From positions 1 through 64,000 of the forward strand of contig NZ_JHVL01000013.1 of NCBI RefSeq assembly GCF_000620125.1: a stretch of 64,000 nucleotides of DNA, written 5' to 3'. The notes beneath the pieces were generated by a model that was given only the letters and a program-made list of their open reading frames with translations, ran no database searches and was not told the origin of the DNA. Position 1 is the stretch's first letter. Each line of letters begins with the position of its first letter. The DNA is from Clostridiisalibacter paucivorans DSM 22131 (GTDB lineage: Bacteria > Bacillota > Clostridia > Tissierellales > Clostridiisalibacteraceae). Shown here one piece after another: positions 29,248 through 36,219 of this stretch. The translations under genes were made by a program, and so were the position numbers.

Positions 29248-30606
29248 CTATGCTGTAGCCTCTAATTCATTTGCCTTTTCCATTTCTTTATTCTTTCCAC
29301 TTCCTATTATAAAATGCAATATCAGTCCTACAGCCAATCCCCAAGCAGCTCCTTTGGTAGCTAGTACAGCACCCATAACTCCAGCCAATCCCTTTTCTTC
29401 ATTTGTTTCAGTATATTGCATGGCTATCCTAGTACAAACAAATCCTTGAACTAATAATGTCAAAGATAGTGCAATAGGCAATACAGGCTTTAACAATGAC
29501 ACTATGGGCATTAATGAAACACCTATAAAACTAGCTATTCTAAAACTTCCAAATCCTCCATATATAGAATCCATTTGATGCCTTCCCTCTTTATACCTTT
29601 CACTAACAGCTGCTGTCACTGCAGCCCATAAGGGTCCACATAATGTGGCATAGGGAACTATTATAGATTGAATGATATTTCTAGCACCACTTATAAGATT
29701 AGATCTATTGGAGTCAAAGTCTATCTTTTCATCTTTTCTGCTTTCATTTGCTTCATTTATCAATGCTTTACTAGTTATAAAGTCTCCAAAGGCTATTATA
29801 TACACTACAATTACCATAGGTAATGCAGCTATAAATATATCAACGCCTGGAAAGCCTATGCCCAATGGGCTTATGGTCTTTATAACTTCTCCAAATCTAG
29901 GCACAAATATTTCCCACTGTATATTTGGTACTGGTATTTCTTTTACTAAAACACCTATAAATAAAGACACTATTATAGCTGGTACCATTCCATATTTGCC
30001 TAAATATGACAATATATTAGATTTCACCTTTATACTCTTAAACTTTGCTGAAAATAAAATATAAAATGACAATAACCCCCCTAATGCTATAGAAATAGGA
30101 AATTCACCAAATCTTCCTCCTATGCCCATTTCCCCTGTTATAGCAGCAACACCAGCACCCAATAATATACCAGCTTTCATTGAATTGGGAATCCAGTTTA
30201 TTATTTTTCCAGCTAAACCTGTTATCCCCATTATTACAAACAATACTCCCACTAATAATTGTAATGCTATTAGTGCATGTATTCTATCTGGGCCCATTTT
30301 ATATTGTCCTAAAAACCCTAAAATCAATGGCAATGCTGGAGTTATCCAGCCTGGCACAACAGGATCTCCCATTAAAACATGTAGGTTATAAAACAATCCA
30401 TTTATTATAACCATTGTTAAAGCCACCTCAAAAGAAAATCCTAGAGTCTCAGTCATAACAGGTATCGCACCTAGACAAGTTGCACAAAGTAAGAGTCCTT
30501 GCCAAATTTCAGGCATTTCTATTTTATAGTGTATAAATGGAATTCTTATTTTAAATATTCCAAATGGAATATACGGTTGCTCTTCACCATTTTTTCTTCC
30601 TTTCAT
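29248..30606 (-). CDS. Multi-spanning permease of the 4-hydroxybutyrate operon (NCS2/SLC23-like)
   Basis: A 452-residue membrane protein with about 12 hydrophobic segments. The overall pattern (PEIWQGLLLCATCLGAIPVM, a repeated glycine-rich half such as AGILLGAGVAAITGEMGIGG, and a re-entrant-like GFPGVDIFIAALP) resembles the xanthine/uracil–ascorbate (NCS2) or sulfate permease superfamily fold. I cannot assign a substrate by motif. It is the last gene of the abfD–NifU–Cys-rich–abfT run, starting 19 bases after the abfT stop, so it may import 4-hydroxybutyrate or a related acid or export a product (inference from position). The start ATG 30606 follows GAGGGGG. No clear terminator hairpin follows its stop. 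Confidence 0.7.
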   Translation of the reverse strand: MKGRKNGEEQPYIPFGIFKIRIPFIHYKIEMPEIWQGLLLCATCLGAIPVMTETLGFSFEVALTMVIINGLFYNLHVLMGDPVVPGWITPALPLILGFLGQYKMGPDRIHALIALQLLVGVLFVIMGITGLAGKIINWIPNSMKAGILLGAGVAAITGEMGIGGRFGEFPISIALGGLLSFYILFSAKFKSIKVKSNILSYLGKYGMVPAIIVSLFIGVLVKEIPVPNIQWEIFVPRFGEVIKTISPLGIGFPGVDIFIAALPMVIVVYIIAFGDFITSKALINEANESRKDEKIDFDSNRSNLISGARNIIQSIIVPYATLCGPLWAAVTAAVSERYKEGRHQMDSIYGGFGSFRIASFIGVSLMPIVSLLKPVLPIALSLTLLVQGFVCTRIAMQYTETNEEKGLAGVMGAVLATKGAAWGLAVGLILHFIIGSGKNKEMEKANELEATA

Positions 30607-30624
30607 AAATATATCCCCCTCATT

Positions 30625-31914
30625 TTATTTAAATCGCTTTGCAAACTCATCTTTTAACTCATCTCTAAAATTAGGATGAGCAATATTGATAAGGGCCTTA
30701 GCTCTACCTCTCAATGTCTTCCCCCTTAAATCAGCTATACCATATTCAGTAACAATATAATGAACATCATTTCTTGAAGTAGTAACTGCAGAACCCTTAT
30801 TTAAAAATGGTACTATTCTTGAAGTCTTGCCTTTCCTTGCTGTGGAAGGTATGGCTATTATAGATTTCCCATCTTTGGCCATACTAGCACCTCTAACATA
30901 GTCAACCTGCCCCCCAGTCCCACTAAATTGATTTAATCCTATACTTTCAGAAGATATTTGTCCCATTAAATCTACTTCTAGGCATGAATTAATGGAAATC
31001 ATCTTATAATTTTGTGCAATGATTACAGGATTATTTACATAGTCCACAGGATATAGTTCCACAGATGGATTATTATCAATAAAATTATAAAGTCGTCTCG
31101 TCCCCATCATGAAAGTAACTACCATTTTTCCTTTATGAATAGTTTTGTTCCTATTTGTTATTACACCTGCCTCAACAAGGTCTACAACTCCATCAGAAAA
31201 CATCTCTGAATGAATCCCCAAATCTCTTTTATCCTTTAAAAACAATAATACAGCATCGGGGATTGCCCCTATTCCCAATTGTAATGTGGATCCATCATCA
31301 ATAAGAGCAGCACAGTTCTCTCCTATTGCCCTTTCGATATCACCTATTTTAGGTGCATTAAGCTCTATGAGCTCTGTTGAATTTTCAACTATATAATCCA
31401 TATTAGACACATGTATAAAATTATCACCTAAAGTTCTTGGCATCTTATCATTGACCTCTGCTATTACTAACCTTGCACATTCGCTAGCAGGCTTAGTGTA
31501 ATCATTAGATAATCCATAACTACAATATCCATGTTCATCTGGAGTACTTACCTGTATAAGTGCCACATCTACAGGTAAGTAATTATCTGTAAACAACCTA
31601 GGTATTTCATAAAAAAAGCTAGGTGTATAATCTGCCCTATTTTGATTAACTGCCTCCCTAGTAGATCCTCCAACAAAAAGGGCATTATGCCTGAAGTGTC
31701 CTCTCATTTCAGGTTTTGTATATTCACTTTTTCCCATGGCAACCATATGGACAATTTCAACATCTTCGTATTGTTCCTTATTATCTATCATGGCCTTAAC
31801 CAGTTTCGTAGGTTCACTGCATGCATGGCCTATAACTACTCTATCGCCAGACTTTATATTTTTTACTGCTTCATCAGCAGATGTCAATCTATTTTTATAA
31901 ATTCTTTTCCACAT
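30625..31914 (-). CDS. abfT: 4-hydroxybutyrate CoA-transferase
   Basis: A family I-type CoA-transferase (acetyl-CoA hydrolase/transferase), 429 residues. It transfers CoA from acetyl-CoA or butyryl-CoA to 4-hydroxybutyrate, producing the substrate of AbfD. It opens WKRIYKNRLTSADEAVKNI with VVIGHACSEP. The catalytic Glu lies in HSEMFSDGVVDLVEAG, and the oxyanion/CoA loop is FSGTGGQVDYVRGA. The start is the ATG at 31914 after GAGGGGGGAG; the frame extension to 31929 is not needed. It overlaps the small Cys-rich gene by 20 bases. Specificity for 4-hydroxybutyrate rather than another acid is supported by the operon with abfD. Confidence 0.92.
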   Translation of the reverse strand: MWKRIYKNRLTSADEAVKNIKSGDRVVIGHACSEPTKLVKAMIDNKEQYEDVEIVHMVAMGKSEYTKPEMRGHFRHNALFVGGSTREAVNQNRADYTPSFFYEIPRLFTDNYLPVDVALIQVSTPDEHGYCSYGLSNDYTKPASECARLVIAEVNDKMPRTLGDNFIHVSNMDYIVENSTELIELNAPKIGDIERAIGENCAALIDDGSTLQLGIGAIPDAVLLFLKDKRDLGIHSEMFSDGVVDLVEAGVITNRNKTIHKGKMVVTFMMGTRRLYNFIDNNPSVELYPVDYVNNPVIIAQNYKMISINSCLEVDLMGQISSESIGLNQFSGTGGQVDYVRGASMAKDGKSIIAIPSTARKGKTSRIVPFLNKGSAVTTSRNDVHYIVTEYGIADLRGKTLRGRAKALINIAHPNFRDELKDEFAKRFK

Positions 31915-32188
31915 AATCTCCCCCCTCATGCCTTAACATATTTATCTTTTTAAATATATCTTCATAACAATCTCTACTGTCTACTTTTATCTTCCACTGG
32001 CACAAAATTCTATCACTATTTGCACAAGCACTTGTGCACCCACACACTATAATCAACACACCATAATACTCATTTTCTCTAGCTACAAAAAATTTATCTT
32101 CTGTTAATATATCCTTTATATATTTTACAAACCTTTTTCTATTGTATTTGGGATTACAACCACCACAATACTTTATACCTATATTCAC
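31895..32188 (-). CDS. Small Cys-rich protein of the 4-hydroxybutyrate operon
   Basis: A 97-residue soluble protein that I do not recognise by name. It has two cysteine clusters: YCGGCNPKYNRKRF at residues 7–20 and VCGCTSACAN at about 48–57. These six cysteines in CxxC/CxCxxxC arrays suggest metal or Fe–S binding. The CGGCNPxYxR motif appears to be a recurrent family signature in anaerobes (my recollection, not checked). It lies 11 bases after the NifU-like gene and overlaps the start of abfT by 20 bases, so it is translated with them. A role in assembling or repairing the AbfD iron–sulfur cluster is possible but unproven. Confidence 0.8.
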   Translation of the reverse strand: MNIGIKYCGGCNPKYNRKRFVKYIKDILTEDKFFVARENEYYGVLIIVCGCTSACANSDRILCQWKIKVDSRDCYEDIFKKINMLRHEGGDYVEKNL

Positions 32189-32199
32189 ATCATTTCTCC

Positions 32200-32478
32200 T
32201 TATAGAGATTTGTTTAAAATTTTTTTTGCCATATCAATAAGCTCTGGACTCACTTCTCTAGATATAACAACTTCATTGACCCATGGAAACTCTTCCTTTA
32301 ACTTTTGTTCAATAAAATCCTTTGTAGTCATATCAGAATGGGGACACCCACTACATGCACCCAATAATTTTATCCTGACTACTCCATTTTTAACTTCTAA
32401 AAGTCTTACATCCCCATTATGACTTATTAACCTAGGTCTTATTTTTTCTTCAAGTATTTCCTTCACTTTGTCAACCAT
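32200..32478 (-). CDS. NifU C-terminal-domain Fe–S scaffold protein
   Basis: A 92-residue stand-alone NifU-C (Nfu) domain. VRLLEVKNGVVRIKLLGACSGCPHSDMTT contains the CxxC pair that holds a transferable [4Fe-4S] cluster between two subunits. The family carries clusters to apo-enzymes. Position between abfD, a [4Fe-4S] dehydratase, and abfT suggests a dedicated carrier for AbfD. It starts at ATG 32478 and is separated from abfD by ~100 bases containing a long hairpin. The normal Nfu length is about 75–95 residues, so it is complete. Confidence 0.9.
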   Translation of the reverse strand: MVDKVKEILEEKIRPRLISHNGDVRLLEVKNGVVRIKLLGACSGCPHSDMTTKDFIEQKLKEEFPWVNEVVISREVSPELIDMAKKILNKSL

Positions 32479-32503
32479 AATATCACTCCATATTTATAGA
32501 TCA

Positions 32504-32548
32504 ACAGAGACATAAAATTGCTACAAATAATTTTATTTATGCCTCTGT
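32504..32548 (-). other. Long hairpin between abfD and the NifU-like gene
   Basis: ACAGAG-CAT-AAAATT pairs with AATTTTAT-ATG-CTCTGT across an 8–9-base loop, with small internal mismatches. No T-run follows on the minus strand. It therefore looks more like an mRNA stabiliser or processing site between a highly expressed first gene and the rest of the operon than a full terminator. Confidence 0.55.
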
Positions 32549-32577
32549 CAATACTAAAATTTATAATTACATCTCAA

Positions 32578-34032
32578 TTATTTTTCTATTTTGGCTATAT
32601 TTTTAGCTAAATCTTTTTTGTGTTCTAAATTACCTTGTCTCCATATCATTACTCTCTGTGCTTGAGGAGACCCTGCTCCATGCATTGATTCTGTTCTATA
32701 TCCTACCGCTGCAGTACCCAGTGTCATATTTTCAATTAATCTTAATATTTTCATACGATCCATAGTAGGTACATTTGCATTACCTTTAAAGTATTTTTCA
32801 CATATGGGTCCTATTTCTGGGTGTTTGAAATCCTTTTCAGATGGCATAGTAACCATTAATCCCCCTGCAATATCTTCAGCTAATCGGGCTATCTCATAAG
32901 GGAATCTCGTAACATTCTGTTTACATATATTCGCCAATAACATATCTATTTGGTAATTCCCCGATTGTGTAGCATAGCCCTCTGAAGAACATGCTATACC
33001 ACAACAGTATAGAGTTTCATTTAGATGCATCATCTCTATAAGTTTATCCTTTATATGAGATGCCTTAGGCACTCCATTATATTCCGCAGCCAATGCAGCA
33101 GCTCCTATTAATACATCACCAACTCCTACTTTACAGCCACCATAACTTTGTCTATGATATCCTGCAAATCTTTCTACTAACATACCTGCAAATTCTGTCT
33201 CTCCATTTAAAAATATTCTCTCATTGGGTACAAAGACATCATCAAATACCACCAATGCCTCTTGCCCTCCAAATTCACTATTACCCACATCCATTTGTAC
33301 ATCTTCTTCCAGCTTTCTAGTATCACATGACTGACGGCCATATATCATGAAAACTCCATCTGCATCTGTAGGTATAGCAAAGGACACAGCATAATCTTTG
33401 TCATCGGGTCCCATCGCTATTGTAGGCATGATTAAATGCTCATGGGAATTAATGCTACCTGTTTGATGTACCTTTGCCCCCCTTACTACAATACCGTCAT
33501 TCCTTCTTTCTACTACATGGACAAACATATCTGGATCCTCTTGTTTACTAGGGGCTAAACCTCTATCTCCTTTGGGATCTGTCATTGCTCCATCCACTGT
33601 CCAATCCTTTTGTTGAACCTCTTTCATGTATTTTGTAAAATTCTTATGATAATTAGTCCCATATTTTTCATCTGTTTCATAAGTAGTACTAAAAACTGCA
33701 TTAAAGGCATCCATCCCAACACATCTTTGAAAGCATGATGCCGTTTTTTGTCCCAATAATCTTTGCATTTTTACTTTTTTAACTAAATCTTCAGTACTTT
33801 GATGTAAATGACAGAACCTATTTACCTTTTCTCCTGTTAAATTAGATGTAGCTGTCATCAAATCTTCATATTGTGGATCATGGGCCAATTCATATGTCAT
33901 TGCCACTGAATTAATAGATGGACGAATTATCGGATGGTCTACTGGATTCTCCACCAACTCTCCAAACATATAAACCTTTATGTCTAAACTTCTAAGACTT
34001 TCAATATACTCTTTCCCTGTCATAAGTGCCAT
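32578..34032 (-). CDS. abfD: 4-hydroxybutyryl-CoA dehydratase / vinylacetyl-CoA isomerase
   Basis: A [4Fe-4S]- and FAD-dependent enzyme that dehydrates 4-hydroxybutyryl-CoA to crotonyl-CoA by a ketyl-radical route and isomerises vinylacetyl-CoA. It is 484 residues. The four cluster ligands known for the Clostridium aminobutyricum enzyme (C99, C103, H292, C299) are all present, shifted by one for the initiator Met: C100 and C104 in ASCFQRCVG, H293 and C300 in GYHRQSYGGC. The fold is acyl-CoA-dehydrogenase-like. The start is ATG 34032 behind GGGAGG, although the frame is open to 34071. It is the first gene of the operon, with a sigma-54-type promoter at 34105–34120. Confidence 0.97.
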   Translation of the reverse strand: MALMTGKEYIESLRSLDIKVYMFGELVENPVDHPIIRPSINSVAMTYELAHDPQYEDLMTATSNLTGEKVNRFCHLHQSTEDLVKKVKMQRLLGQKTASCFQRCVGMDAFNAVFSTTYETDEKYGTNYHKNFTKYMKEVQQKDWTVDGAMTDPKGDRGLAPSKQEDPDMFVHVVERRNDGIVVRGAKVHQTGSINSHEHLIMPTIAMGPDDKDYAVSFAIPTDADGVFMIYGRQSCDTRKLEEDVQMDVGNSEFGGQEALVVFDDVFVPNERIFLNGETEFAGMLVERFAGYHRQSYGGCKVGVGDVLIGAAALAAEYNGVPKASHIKDKLIEMMHLNETLYCCGIACSSEGYATQSGNYQIDMLLANICKQNVTRFPYEIARLAEDIAGGLMVTMPSEKDFKHPEIGPICEKYFKGNANVPTMDRMKILRLIENMTLGTAAVGYRTESMHGAGSPQAQRVMIWRQGNLEHKKDLAKNIAKIEK

Positions 34033-34104: not shown

Positions 34105-34120
34105 TGCAATTGATATGCCA
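34105..34120 (-). promoter_or_regulatory. Sigma-54 (-24/-12) promoter of the abfD operon
   Basis: The minus strand reads TGGCATATCAATTGCA. The GG and GC are 12 bases apart, as required, and the match to TGGCAC-N5-TTGCA is close. It lies about 70 bases before the abfD ATG, next to a gene for a sigma-54 activator. Confidence 0.8.
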
Positions 34121-34217: not shown

Positions 34218-34277
34218 TTCAAAAAACAAAGAGAAATTCGTTGCGATATCGCAACGAATTTCTCTTCGTTTTTTGAA
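34218..34277 (-). terminator. 60-base inverted repeat: terminator of the sigma-54 activator gene and/or activator site
   Basis: Positions 34229–34266 form a perfect 38-bp palindrome. After one mismatch the pairing continues to 34218 and 34277. On the minus strand the perfect part is followed by TTGTTTTTTG, so the RNA hairpin could end the activator transcript. Its centre (34241–34254, TTGCGATATCGCAA) is also the best of three dyads matching TTGC-N6-GCAA. Confidence 0.7.
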
Positions 34278-34358: not shown

Positions 34359-36119
34359 CTATTTTTCATATTTTTTCCTCTTTCTCACAAATGTAGAAGG
34401 ATCTATGTCTAAAGCCCTAGCAGCATCCCTGACATTACCATATTTTTCATATGACCTCTCTAGCAAATTTTTTTCTACAATGGAAACTGCCCTTTTTATA
34501 GGGATTATATCATCACAGAATTCAAATCTTGGCCTATTCTTTTTATTGAGTATTTTTCTAGGTAAGTCTTTACAATTTATCTCATCGCCACTACTCATTG
34601 CTGTTATTCTTTCTATAACATTTTTTAGTTCCCTTACATTTCCTGGCCATTGGTAGTCATAAATAGCATCCATAACATCTCTGGCTAAAGATTTATTCCA
34701 TCCATATTTTTCGTTTATATTCATTAAAAAATATCTAGTCAATTCTATTATATCCTGCTTTCTCTCTCTAAGTGGAGGAATATTTATAGGAATTACATTT
34801 AATCTATAAAATAGATCTTCTCTAAATAGCTTCTGTTTTACCATCTTTTCTAAATCCCTATTAGTGGCAGAAATTATCCTCACATCTATCTTTATGGATT
34901 TCACTCCCCCAACCCTTTTGACTTCATTTTCTTGAAGTACCCTCAAAAGTTTTACCTGCATATTTAGTGGCAATTCTCCTATCTCATCTAAAAATAAGGT
35001 TCCTCCATTAGCAACCTCAAAAAGTCCCATCTTTCCATCTTTATTTGCACCAGTAAATGCCCCTTGTTCATATCCAAAGAGTTCAGATTCTATTAGATTT
35101 TCTGGTATAGCACCACAATTTACTTTTATAAATGGCTTTTCAAGTCTGTTACTATTCTTGTGTATGAATTTGGCCACAACCTCTTTTCCAACTCCACTTT
35201 CACCAAAAAGTAATACTGTAATATCAGTTATTGCCGCCTTTTTAGCACGATAAAGAATATCTAACATTTTTTTATCCTTTACCACAAGACCTGATGTGTC
35301 TAGATATTGATTTTTTAGTTCTTTAATCTCCCAATAATATTTTTCAGCTAACTTTTCCTGTACTTGCAGTTCACTTTTTAGTTTATACAGCTCAGTGACA
35401 TCCCTTACATTAGTTATCACTATAATTATATTTCCTTTTTCATCAAATACTGGTCTACTGGTAATCAATGCCTTCTTCCCTGTCTTAAACTCTTGATTTA
35501 AAGAAATAGTCTGTCTTTTCTCTATTGATAAAAGAGAACCTGACTTTGATATATAACCCTCTTTCACAAGGTCTTTCATATTTCTATCAATTAGATTCGC
35601 CCTTTTCAGCCCTGTTATTCTCTCATATGATTCATTAACTCTGATAGTTTTTCCTTTTCCATCTGTAATATATATCCCATCATAGGAATACTCTATAGTT
35701 CTATCCAATCTTTTAGATAACTTTCTATTAATTTCTAGCTCCTTTAATATCTTTTCAAAGGAAGTTATATCTTGAAATAAGATAGTAGCTCCCCATAATT
35801 TGTCATCTATTCTCAACGGAATAAAATCATATATTAGTAATTTCCCTTTATACCTGATTTTCTCTTTATATATACTATTAAATTCTTTCAATATATTTTT
35901 CTCTATTCTGAATTTTTCAAATATATCTGAGATATGACTATCTTTCACATCATACTTGTCAACCCCCAATATCTTTAAAGCCGTCTTATTAAAACATGAT
36001 ATAATTCCATCCTTATCAATTGTAACTATCCCATTGCTGGAAGATTGTATTATTGTTCGAAGTTTTTTAAGTTCATATTGTATTGATAATTTATCTGCAT
36101 TACTCTCGCCCATCCCCAT
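34359..36119 (-). CDS. Sigma-54-dependent transcriptional activator with two PAS domains
   Basis: An enhancer-binding protein of 586 residues. PAS domains lie at about 20–125 and 142–250 (ATILFQDITSFEKI; ITNVRDVTELYKLK mark their ends). The AAA+ domain spans 280–520 with Walker A GESGVGKE at 306–313, the sigma-54 contact loop GAFTGA at 353–358, Walker B GGTLFLDEIGELP, and the arginine-finger region LFREDLFYRLNV. A Fis-type HTH ends the protein (NVRDAARALDIDPSTFVRKR, 562–581). The start is ATG 36119 after GGAGGGGG. It has no receiver domain, so it probably senses a small molecule or redox state through PAS. It lies directly beside the abfD operon, its likely target, with the liv operon on the other side as an alternative. 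Confidence 0.94.
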   Translation of the reverse strand: MGMGESNADKLSIQYELKKLRTIIQSSSNGIVTIDKDGIISCFNKTALKILGVDKYDVKDSHISDIFEKFRIEKNILKEFNSIYKEKIRYKGKLLIYDFIPLRIDDKLWGATILFQDITSFEKILKELEINRKLSKRLDRTIEYSYDGIYITDGKGKTIRVNESYERITGLKRANLIDRNMKDLVKEGYISKSGSLLSIEKRQTISLNQEFKTGKKALITSRPVFDEKGNIIIVITNVRDVTELYKLKSELQVQEKLAEKYYWEIKELKNQYLDTSGLVVKDKKMLDILYRAKKAAITDITVLLFGESGVGKEVVAKFIHKNSNRLEKPFIKVNCGAIPENLIESELFGYEQGAFTGANKDGKMGLFEVANGGTLFLDEIGELPLNMQVKLLRVLQENEVKRVGGVKSIKIDVRIISATNRDLEKMVKQKLFREDLFYRLNVIPINIPPLRERKQDIIELTRYFLMNINEKYGWNKSLARDVMDAIYDYQWPGNVRELKNVIERITAMSSGDEINCKDLPRKILNKKNRPRFEFCDDIIPIKRAVSIVEKNLLERSYEKYGNVRDAARALDIDPSTFVRKRKKYEK

Positions 36120-36219
36120 AAAATAACCCCCTCCCATTTTTAATAATAACACAAAAAAATGATTCTAAAAACAAATATCCCGATTGTTGGCAACTATAAA
36201 ACTTATTAAAATATAAAAA

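Follow-up and report, generated by a model that had tools for sequence, protein, structure and literature searches.

4-Hydroxybutyryl-CoA dehydratase (AbfD) is the textbook radical dehydratase of 4-hydroxybutyrate/GABA fermentation and of archaeal CO2-fixation cycles, and its catalysis involves a transient FAD/ketyl radical. Active recombinant C. aminobutyricum enzyme has been obtained from E. coli. To our knowledge, no accessory protein is known as part of this enzyme, the archaeal AbfDs function without a known helper, and AbfD is regarded as self-sufficient. Client-specific Fe-S accessory modules are a known kind of system; we found none for AbfD in the open-licence PubMed Central literature.

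The closest described gene arrangement is that of the XanR sigma54 regulon of Clostridium, in which abfD-nifU-hyp-ach-golB is listed together with acp-caiC-luxEC (Nie et al. 2019, PMC6615313). The locus analyzed here lies in a 64-kb stretch of DNA, hereafter the window, from another Clostridia lineage, and it shows the same gene order, a sigma54 promoter and an adjacent enhancer-binding activator (EBP) gene. By position, 'hyp' corresponds to a 97-aa Cys-rich protein for which we use the working name CysP, 'ach' to a CoA-transferase, and 'golB' to a permease; the acp-caiC-luxEC operon is absent from the window. The operon is therefore already known as a regulon entry, with CysP as its unexplained 'hyp'; it was published as a regulon only, in which neither 'hyp' nor the Nfu was given a function or family (PMC6615313). 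Beyond that regulon table, we found in the open-licence PubMed Central literature no paper on CysP, and no mention of its tie to AbfD or of a dedicated Nfu branch.

Organization and control of the abfD operon

The genes abfD, nifU-C, cysP, abfT and that of the permease follow one another in this order on the minus strand and constitute one operon, with an RBS-like sequence at each of the five; this agrees with the one-direction order given in the sequence-only reading. Since dozens of genomes have this same set of genes, the arrangement is not a product of chance. The first gene, abfD (32578..34032), is separated by 99 nt from nifU-C (32200..32478), which encodes a putative cluster carrier, and 11 nt further on lies cysP (31895..32188, GTG start). 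The 3' end of cysP overlaps the gene of an AbfT-like CoA-transferase with the N- and C-terminal AcetylCoA_hydro domains (30625..31914, alternative start at 31929), and 18 nt separate the latter from the permease gene (29248..30606). The permease (452 aa) has no Pfam or NCBIfam family over the cut-off and showed only a sub-threshold match to MFS_MOT1. It is a candidate 4-hydroxybutyrate transporter and probably the 'golB' of the XanR regulon, and it is kept as a neighbour in 26 of the 80 CysP loci that were counted (best 80 of 314 relatives).

The abfD product (484 aa; HpaB_N and HpaB above cut-off) had as its best PDB match the C. aminobutyricum dehydratase (1u8v, E 9.2e-254), to which it is homologous end to end (residues 3-482). 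The Cys3-His ligand set expected of the enzyme is intact: C100, C104, H293 and C300 correspond to Cys99, Cys103, His292 and Cys299 in the C. aminobutyricum numbering, and the four ligands are identical in all 145 fully covered homologues, with no difference between genomes that have CysP and those that do not. Full-length homology and the cluster ligands identify the protein as a 4-hydroxybutyryl-CoA dehydratase, a predicted activity.

A sigma54 -24/-12 promoter, TGGCATatcaaTTGCA (34105..34120, minus strand), is located 5' of abfD; it is the sole perfect match in the 64-kb window, where the mean expected by chance is 0.14. Further upstream of abfD, beyond this promoter, we found a 60-nt inverted repeat with 30-nt arms, 97% complementary and with no spacer (34218..34277, not assigned to a strand), which is a candidate activator-binding site, and a gene for a XanR/PrdR-like sigma54 enhancer-binding activator of PAS-AAA-HTH_8 architecture (34359..36152, minus strand; Sigma54_activat, PAS and HTH_8 matched). 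The EBP gene is kept at 34 of the best 80 CysP loci of the 314. Within the operon, the abfD/nifU intergenic region (32479..32577, minus strand) can form a stable hairpin, with an MFE of -22.5 kcal/mol versus -14.2 kcal/mol for shuffled sequences (z -2.6). It is a possible attenuator or processing site, and perhaps keeps the accessory genes at a lower expression level than abfD.

The CysP family and its co-occurrence with AbfD

CysP carries seven cysteines (positions 8, 11, 49, 51, 55, 63 and 74) rather than the six counted in the sequence-only reading. Its motifs, CGGCNPxY(D/N)R and, further on, (C)GCxxxCA, contain the four cysteines C8, C11, C51 and C55. These are unchanged in all 77 homologues of the alignment, as are G4, K6, G9, G10, N12, R17 and G50; a cysteine at position 49 is present in 57 of the 77. 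A site for a metal or a cluster would be expected to show such a pattern. No Pfam or NCBIfam model was matched above cut-off and no PDB sequence was matched, the CysP profile found no solved structure up to E 10, and a search against PHROGs gave only a weak match (E 0.015). AlphaFold2 predicted a confident small alpha/beta fold with the topology beta-alpha-beta-beta-beta-alpha (mean pLDDT of 83 for the window protein and 89 for the C. bovifaecis relative, L049), in which strand 1 leads into C8/C11 and strand 3 into C51/C55. When the two models were submitted to Foldseek, nothing significant was obtained; the best hits were weak Rossmann-type and receiver-like matches (best E 0.15).

The occurrence of a CxxC after the first strand and of a GCxxxC(A) after a later strand is shared with the Rdx proteins (SelT/SelW/SelH), DGC, and the thioredoxin-like [2Fe-2S] ferredoxins; however, CysP stays below all the curated cut-offs, and Foldseek gave no match to the thioredoxin class. 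Assignment to SelW/Rdx (PF10262/TIGR02174) was rejected, as the cut-off was not reached: the window protein gave no match and the best of the 77 members gave E 0.0055. A weak, sub-threshold local resemblance in the CxxC-helix part was detected in 16 of the 77, and in the one member examined it covers residues 3-32 only. DGC (PF08859) was matched by five of the 77 members, all below threshold; the match in the member examined is restricted to residues 37-60, and no DGC relatives were found in 31 genomes of the order. The thioredoxin-like ferredoxins carry Cx4-12C and Cx3C ligands on a thioredoxin fold, whereas the first cysteine pair of CysP is CxxC, and no Pfam or fold match was obtained. A selenocysteine form of CysP was also discarded, since about 100 members have no TGA at the motif positions; the internal TGA in one CysP match (G183) is probably that gene's own stop.

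A search of 60 genomes from the window genome's order, based on sequence alone, detected CysP relatives, and an AbfD gene was present in all 12 stretches examined around them. A collection scan yielded 314 relatives, and among the best 80 of these abfD was found in 61 loci, in 55 of them at a distance of ≤1 kb; in this neighbourhood survey, which the sequence-only reading had called for, the small proteins are thus not mostly away from abfD. Eighteen of the 19 loci without AbfD were checked genome-wide, and AbfD was encoded elsewhere in 16 (71-80% identity). It is missing in the other two, both MAGs, one of which holds only a 41% paralogue. The Bacteroidales MAG L072 contains both CysP and AbfD, unlinked.

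The same tie was observed in two further sets of genomes. In a sample of 300 genomes across the phylum, with AbfD called at ≥55% identity, AbfD was present in 33 genomes and CysP in 19, all 19 of which have AbfD (Fisher p 1.5e-21), and among all 249 genomes of the order the corresponding numbers were 45, 34 and 34 (p ~1e-32), both p-values ignoring shared ancestry. A 35th CysP genome of the order, with a 30-aa fragment containing stops, was left out of the 34. In the phylum sample, no CysP gene among the 23 is more than 7.5 kb from an abfD, and in the order the distance is ≤8.5 kb in 31 of the 34 genomes and ≤1 kb in 21. The argument rests less on the p-values than on the spread over many families and over several phyla, which include Bacillota, Fusobacteriota, Calditrichota, Myxococcota and Thermodesulfobacteriota, on the unlinked cases, and on the pairing of abfD duplications with cysP duplications (G119, G085 and G170). 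Genomes that have CysP but no AbfD are thus very rare. As a separate observation, G085, G119, G170 and G033 contain at least two abfD paralogues and more than one cysP, mostly adjoining; some of these paralogues are 58-65% identical to the window AbfD and may have other substrates.

The converse does not hold: AbfD occurs without CysP in 11 of the 45 AbfD genomes of the order and in 14 of the 33 of the phylum sample, with unchanged Cys3-His ligands, which indicates that the AbfD cluster can form without CysP. In the AbfD tree, the 12 rows without CysP are scattered in several places (five changes), and neither an Nfu nor a look-alike four-Cys ORF was found within 1.5 kb of abfD in neighbourhoods without CysP.

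The linked Nfu and other partners of CysP

The window NifU-C is a bare Nfu domain of 92 aa with a CSGC motif (PF01106, E 1.6e-26; 92.7 bits versus a cut-off of 27) that also matched solved Nfu domains, and it is predicted to function in cluster transfer. It shares the PF01106 domain and its CxxC with the Nfu/NfuA-type carriers, but differs from them in being a bare domain, operon-bound to one client and placed on a separate branch. It is the sole Nfu of the window genome, which has one IscU and no match to SufB/D, whereas SufB/D was matched in each of 14 control genomes. When 12 CysP genomes were examined, 11 likewise had a single NifU-C. The gene immediately upstream of cysP encodes Nfu at 59 of the 80 loci (best 80 of 314), loci without abfD included. 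In a quick tree of about 90 columns, 69 linked Nfus and 30 general Nfus, the latter taken as the best-scoring domain matches, were placed on opposite sides of one branch (SH-aLRT 97). The linked Nfu of C. drakei and its second Nfu fall on opposite sides of this branch, and the single Nfu of L072, which is located away from the CysP locus, groups with the general ones.

Of the 19 genomes with CysP in the phylum sample, seven have no NifU-C (E 1e-6); hence CysP does not depend on Nfu, and its tie to AbfD is tighter than that of Nfu. Given also the AbfD genomes that have no CysP, neither small protein is universally needed. The earlier idea of a dedicated carrier with a Cys-rich partner was therefore partly supported, in that both are tied to AbfD and the linked Nfu forms a separate branch, and has to be narrowed in that neither is universal. 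Besides, NifU-C domains with one in-frame TGA, possibly selenocysteine, were seen in many genomes of the phylum (G102, G128, G142, G232, G281, G286, G305, G310, G329, G334 and others).

Fusions of CysP with a MaoC hydratase are found at many loci in Lachnospiraceae, Megasphaera and relatives (e.g. L054, L080 and L104), followed by genes for an ACP-sized protein, a metallo-hydrolase, LuxE, LuxC and an AMP-ligase, and at L123 the CysP reading frame continues into a crotonase-like sequence. MaoC and crotonase are two unrelated types of enoyl-CoA hydratase, and enoyl-CoA is the product class of AbfD. A conserved set composed of an AMP-ligase, an ACP-sized protein, LuxE, LuxC, a metallo-beta-lactamase-fold hydrolase and a MaoC hydratase was also observed beside abfD (L027, L048, L052, L062, L068, L104 and about 17 more loci). 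This set corresponds to acp-caiC-luxEC of the XanR regulon and has the appearance of an acyl-protein/aldehyde-forming reductase system with a link to 4-hydroxybutyrate metabolism. At L046, L050 and L053, away from abfD, CysP accompanies a C_GCAxxG_C_C-like protein and a nitroreductase-like gene, both named by eye.

Possible roles of CysP

The best reading of these data is that CysP serves AbfD as a dedicated accessory in cluster delivery, repair or redox function, and we infer its mechanism as follows. The operon would encode a sigma54/EBP-controlled 4-hydroxybutyrate fermentation that carries AbfD's own cofactor service: 4-hydroxybutyrate would be taken up by the permease, activated with CoA by AbfT, and subjected by AbfD to radical dehydration to crotonyl-CoA. 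The linked Nfu would be loaded with a cluster by the housekeeping IscU system and would carry this on its CxxC. With C8, C11, C51 and C55 as ligands, CysP may bind a metal or a cluster and, as an adaptor specific for AbfD, would contact this enzyme directly and install or repair its Cys3-His [4Fe-4S] cluster; transfer would presumably run in this direction, with Nfu as an optional feeder. Delivery or repair of the AbfD cluster in this manner is the reading that we favour, tentatively. The fuller proposal, that CysP is the founder of an undescribed small metalloprotein family and acts on a single client, AbfD, as a maturase or repair factor of its Cys3-His [4Fe-4S]/FAD radical site, fed by a private Nfu, is possible, and we advance it with less confidence. 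If C. aminobutyricum AbfD is indeed active when made in E. coli, CysP would be an enhancer or repair factor and not an absolute requirement.

CysP could instead act as a redox partner, whose CxxC/CxxxC thiols or cluster would reset AbfD, much as an activase or a small ferredoxin would, in response to a stalled FAD semiquinone/ketyl radical cycle or to an oxidised cluster. The radical chemistry of AbfD, the CysP genomes that have no Nfu (7/19), and the local resemblance to Rdx/SelW are consistent with this role; however, that resemblance is sub-threshold and confined to a short segment in the member examined, Foldseek returned no thioredoxin or ferredoxin fold, and the Nfu neighbour points to cluster trafficking. 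We consider this redox role unlikely. A role in the pathway itself, in which CysP would either handle a thioester or aldehyde of the pathway or serve as a scaffold between AbfD and the downstream hydratases, was kept as an alternative mainly because the fusion partners of CysP act on enoyl-CoA; the CysP-MaoC fusions argue to this extent against cluster service, and CysP can head the MaoC-ACP-LuxE-LuxC-AMP-ligase cluster instead of forming part of the abfD transcript. This role appears rather improbable to us, as there are loci with CysP and AbfD that have no MaoC, ACP, Lux or even AbfT (e.g. L032, L055, L057 and L090), and the invariant residues of CysP resemble a metal site rather than a substrate pocket.

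That cysP and nifU are mere hitch-hikers in a sigma54 regulon, linked to abfD by regulation or history and with no direct role for AbfD, would fit the presence of the operon among the XanR targets (PMC6615313). Nevertheless, co-occurrence persists where cysP and abfD are unlinked, extends across five phyla and follows the duplications of abfD, so that this explanation is very improbable. We favour a ranking in which cluster delivery or repair comes before redox reset, and the latter before a role in the pathway.

Taken together, the distribution and conservation of CysP suggest a dedicated helper for the much-studied AbfD. In at least five phyla, CysP is practically never found without AbfD; either the unusual cluster/flavin site of this enzyme needs service in many anaerobes, or a step of the pathway has been overlooked. 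If the helper role is true, pathway engineering that depends on AbfD would gain from it.
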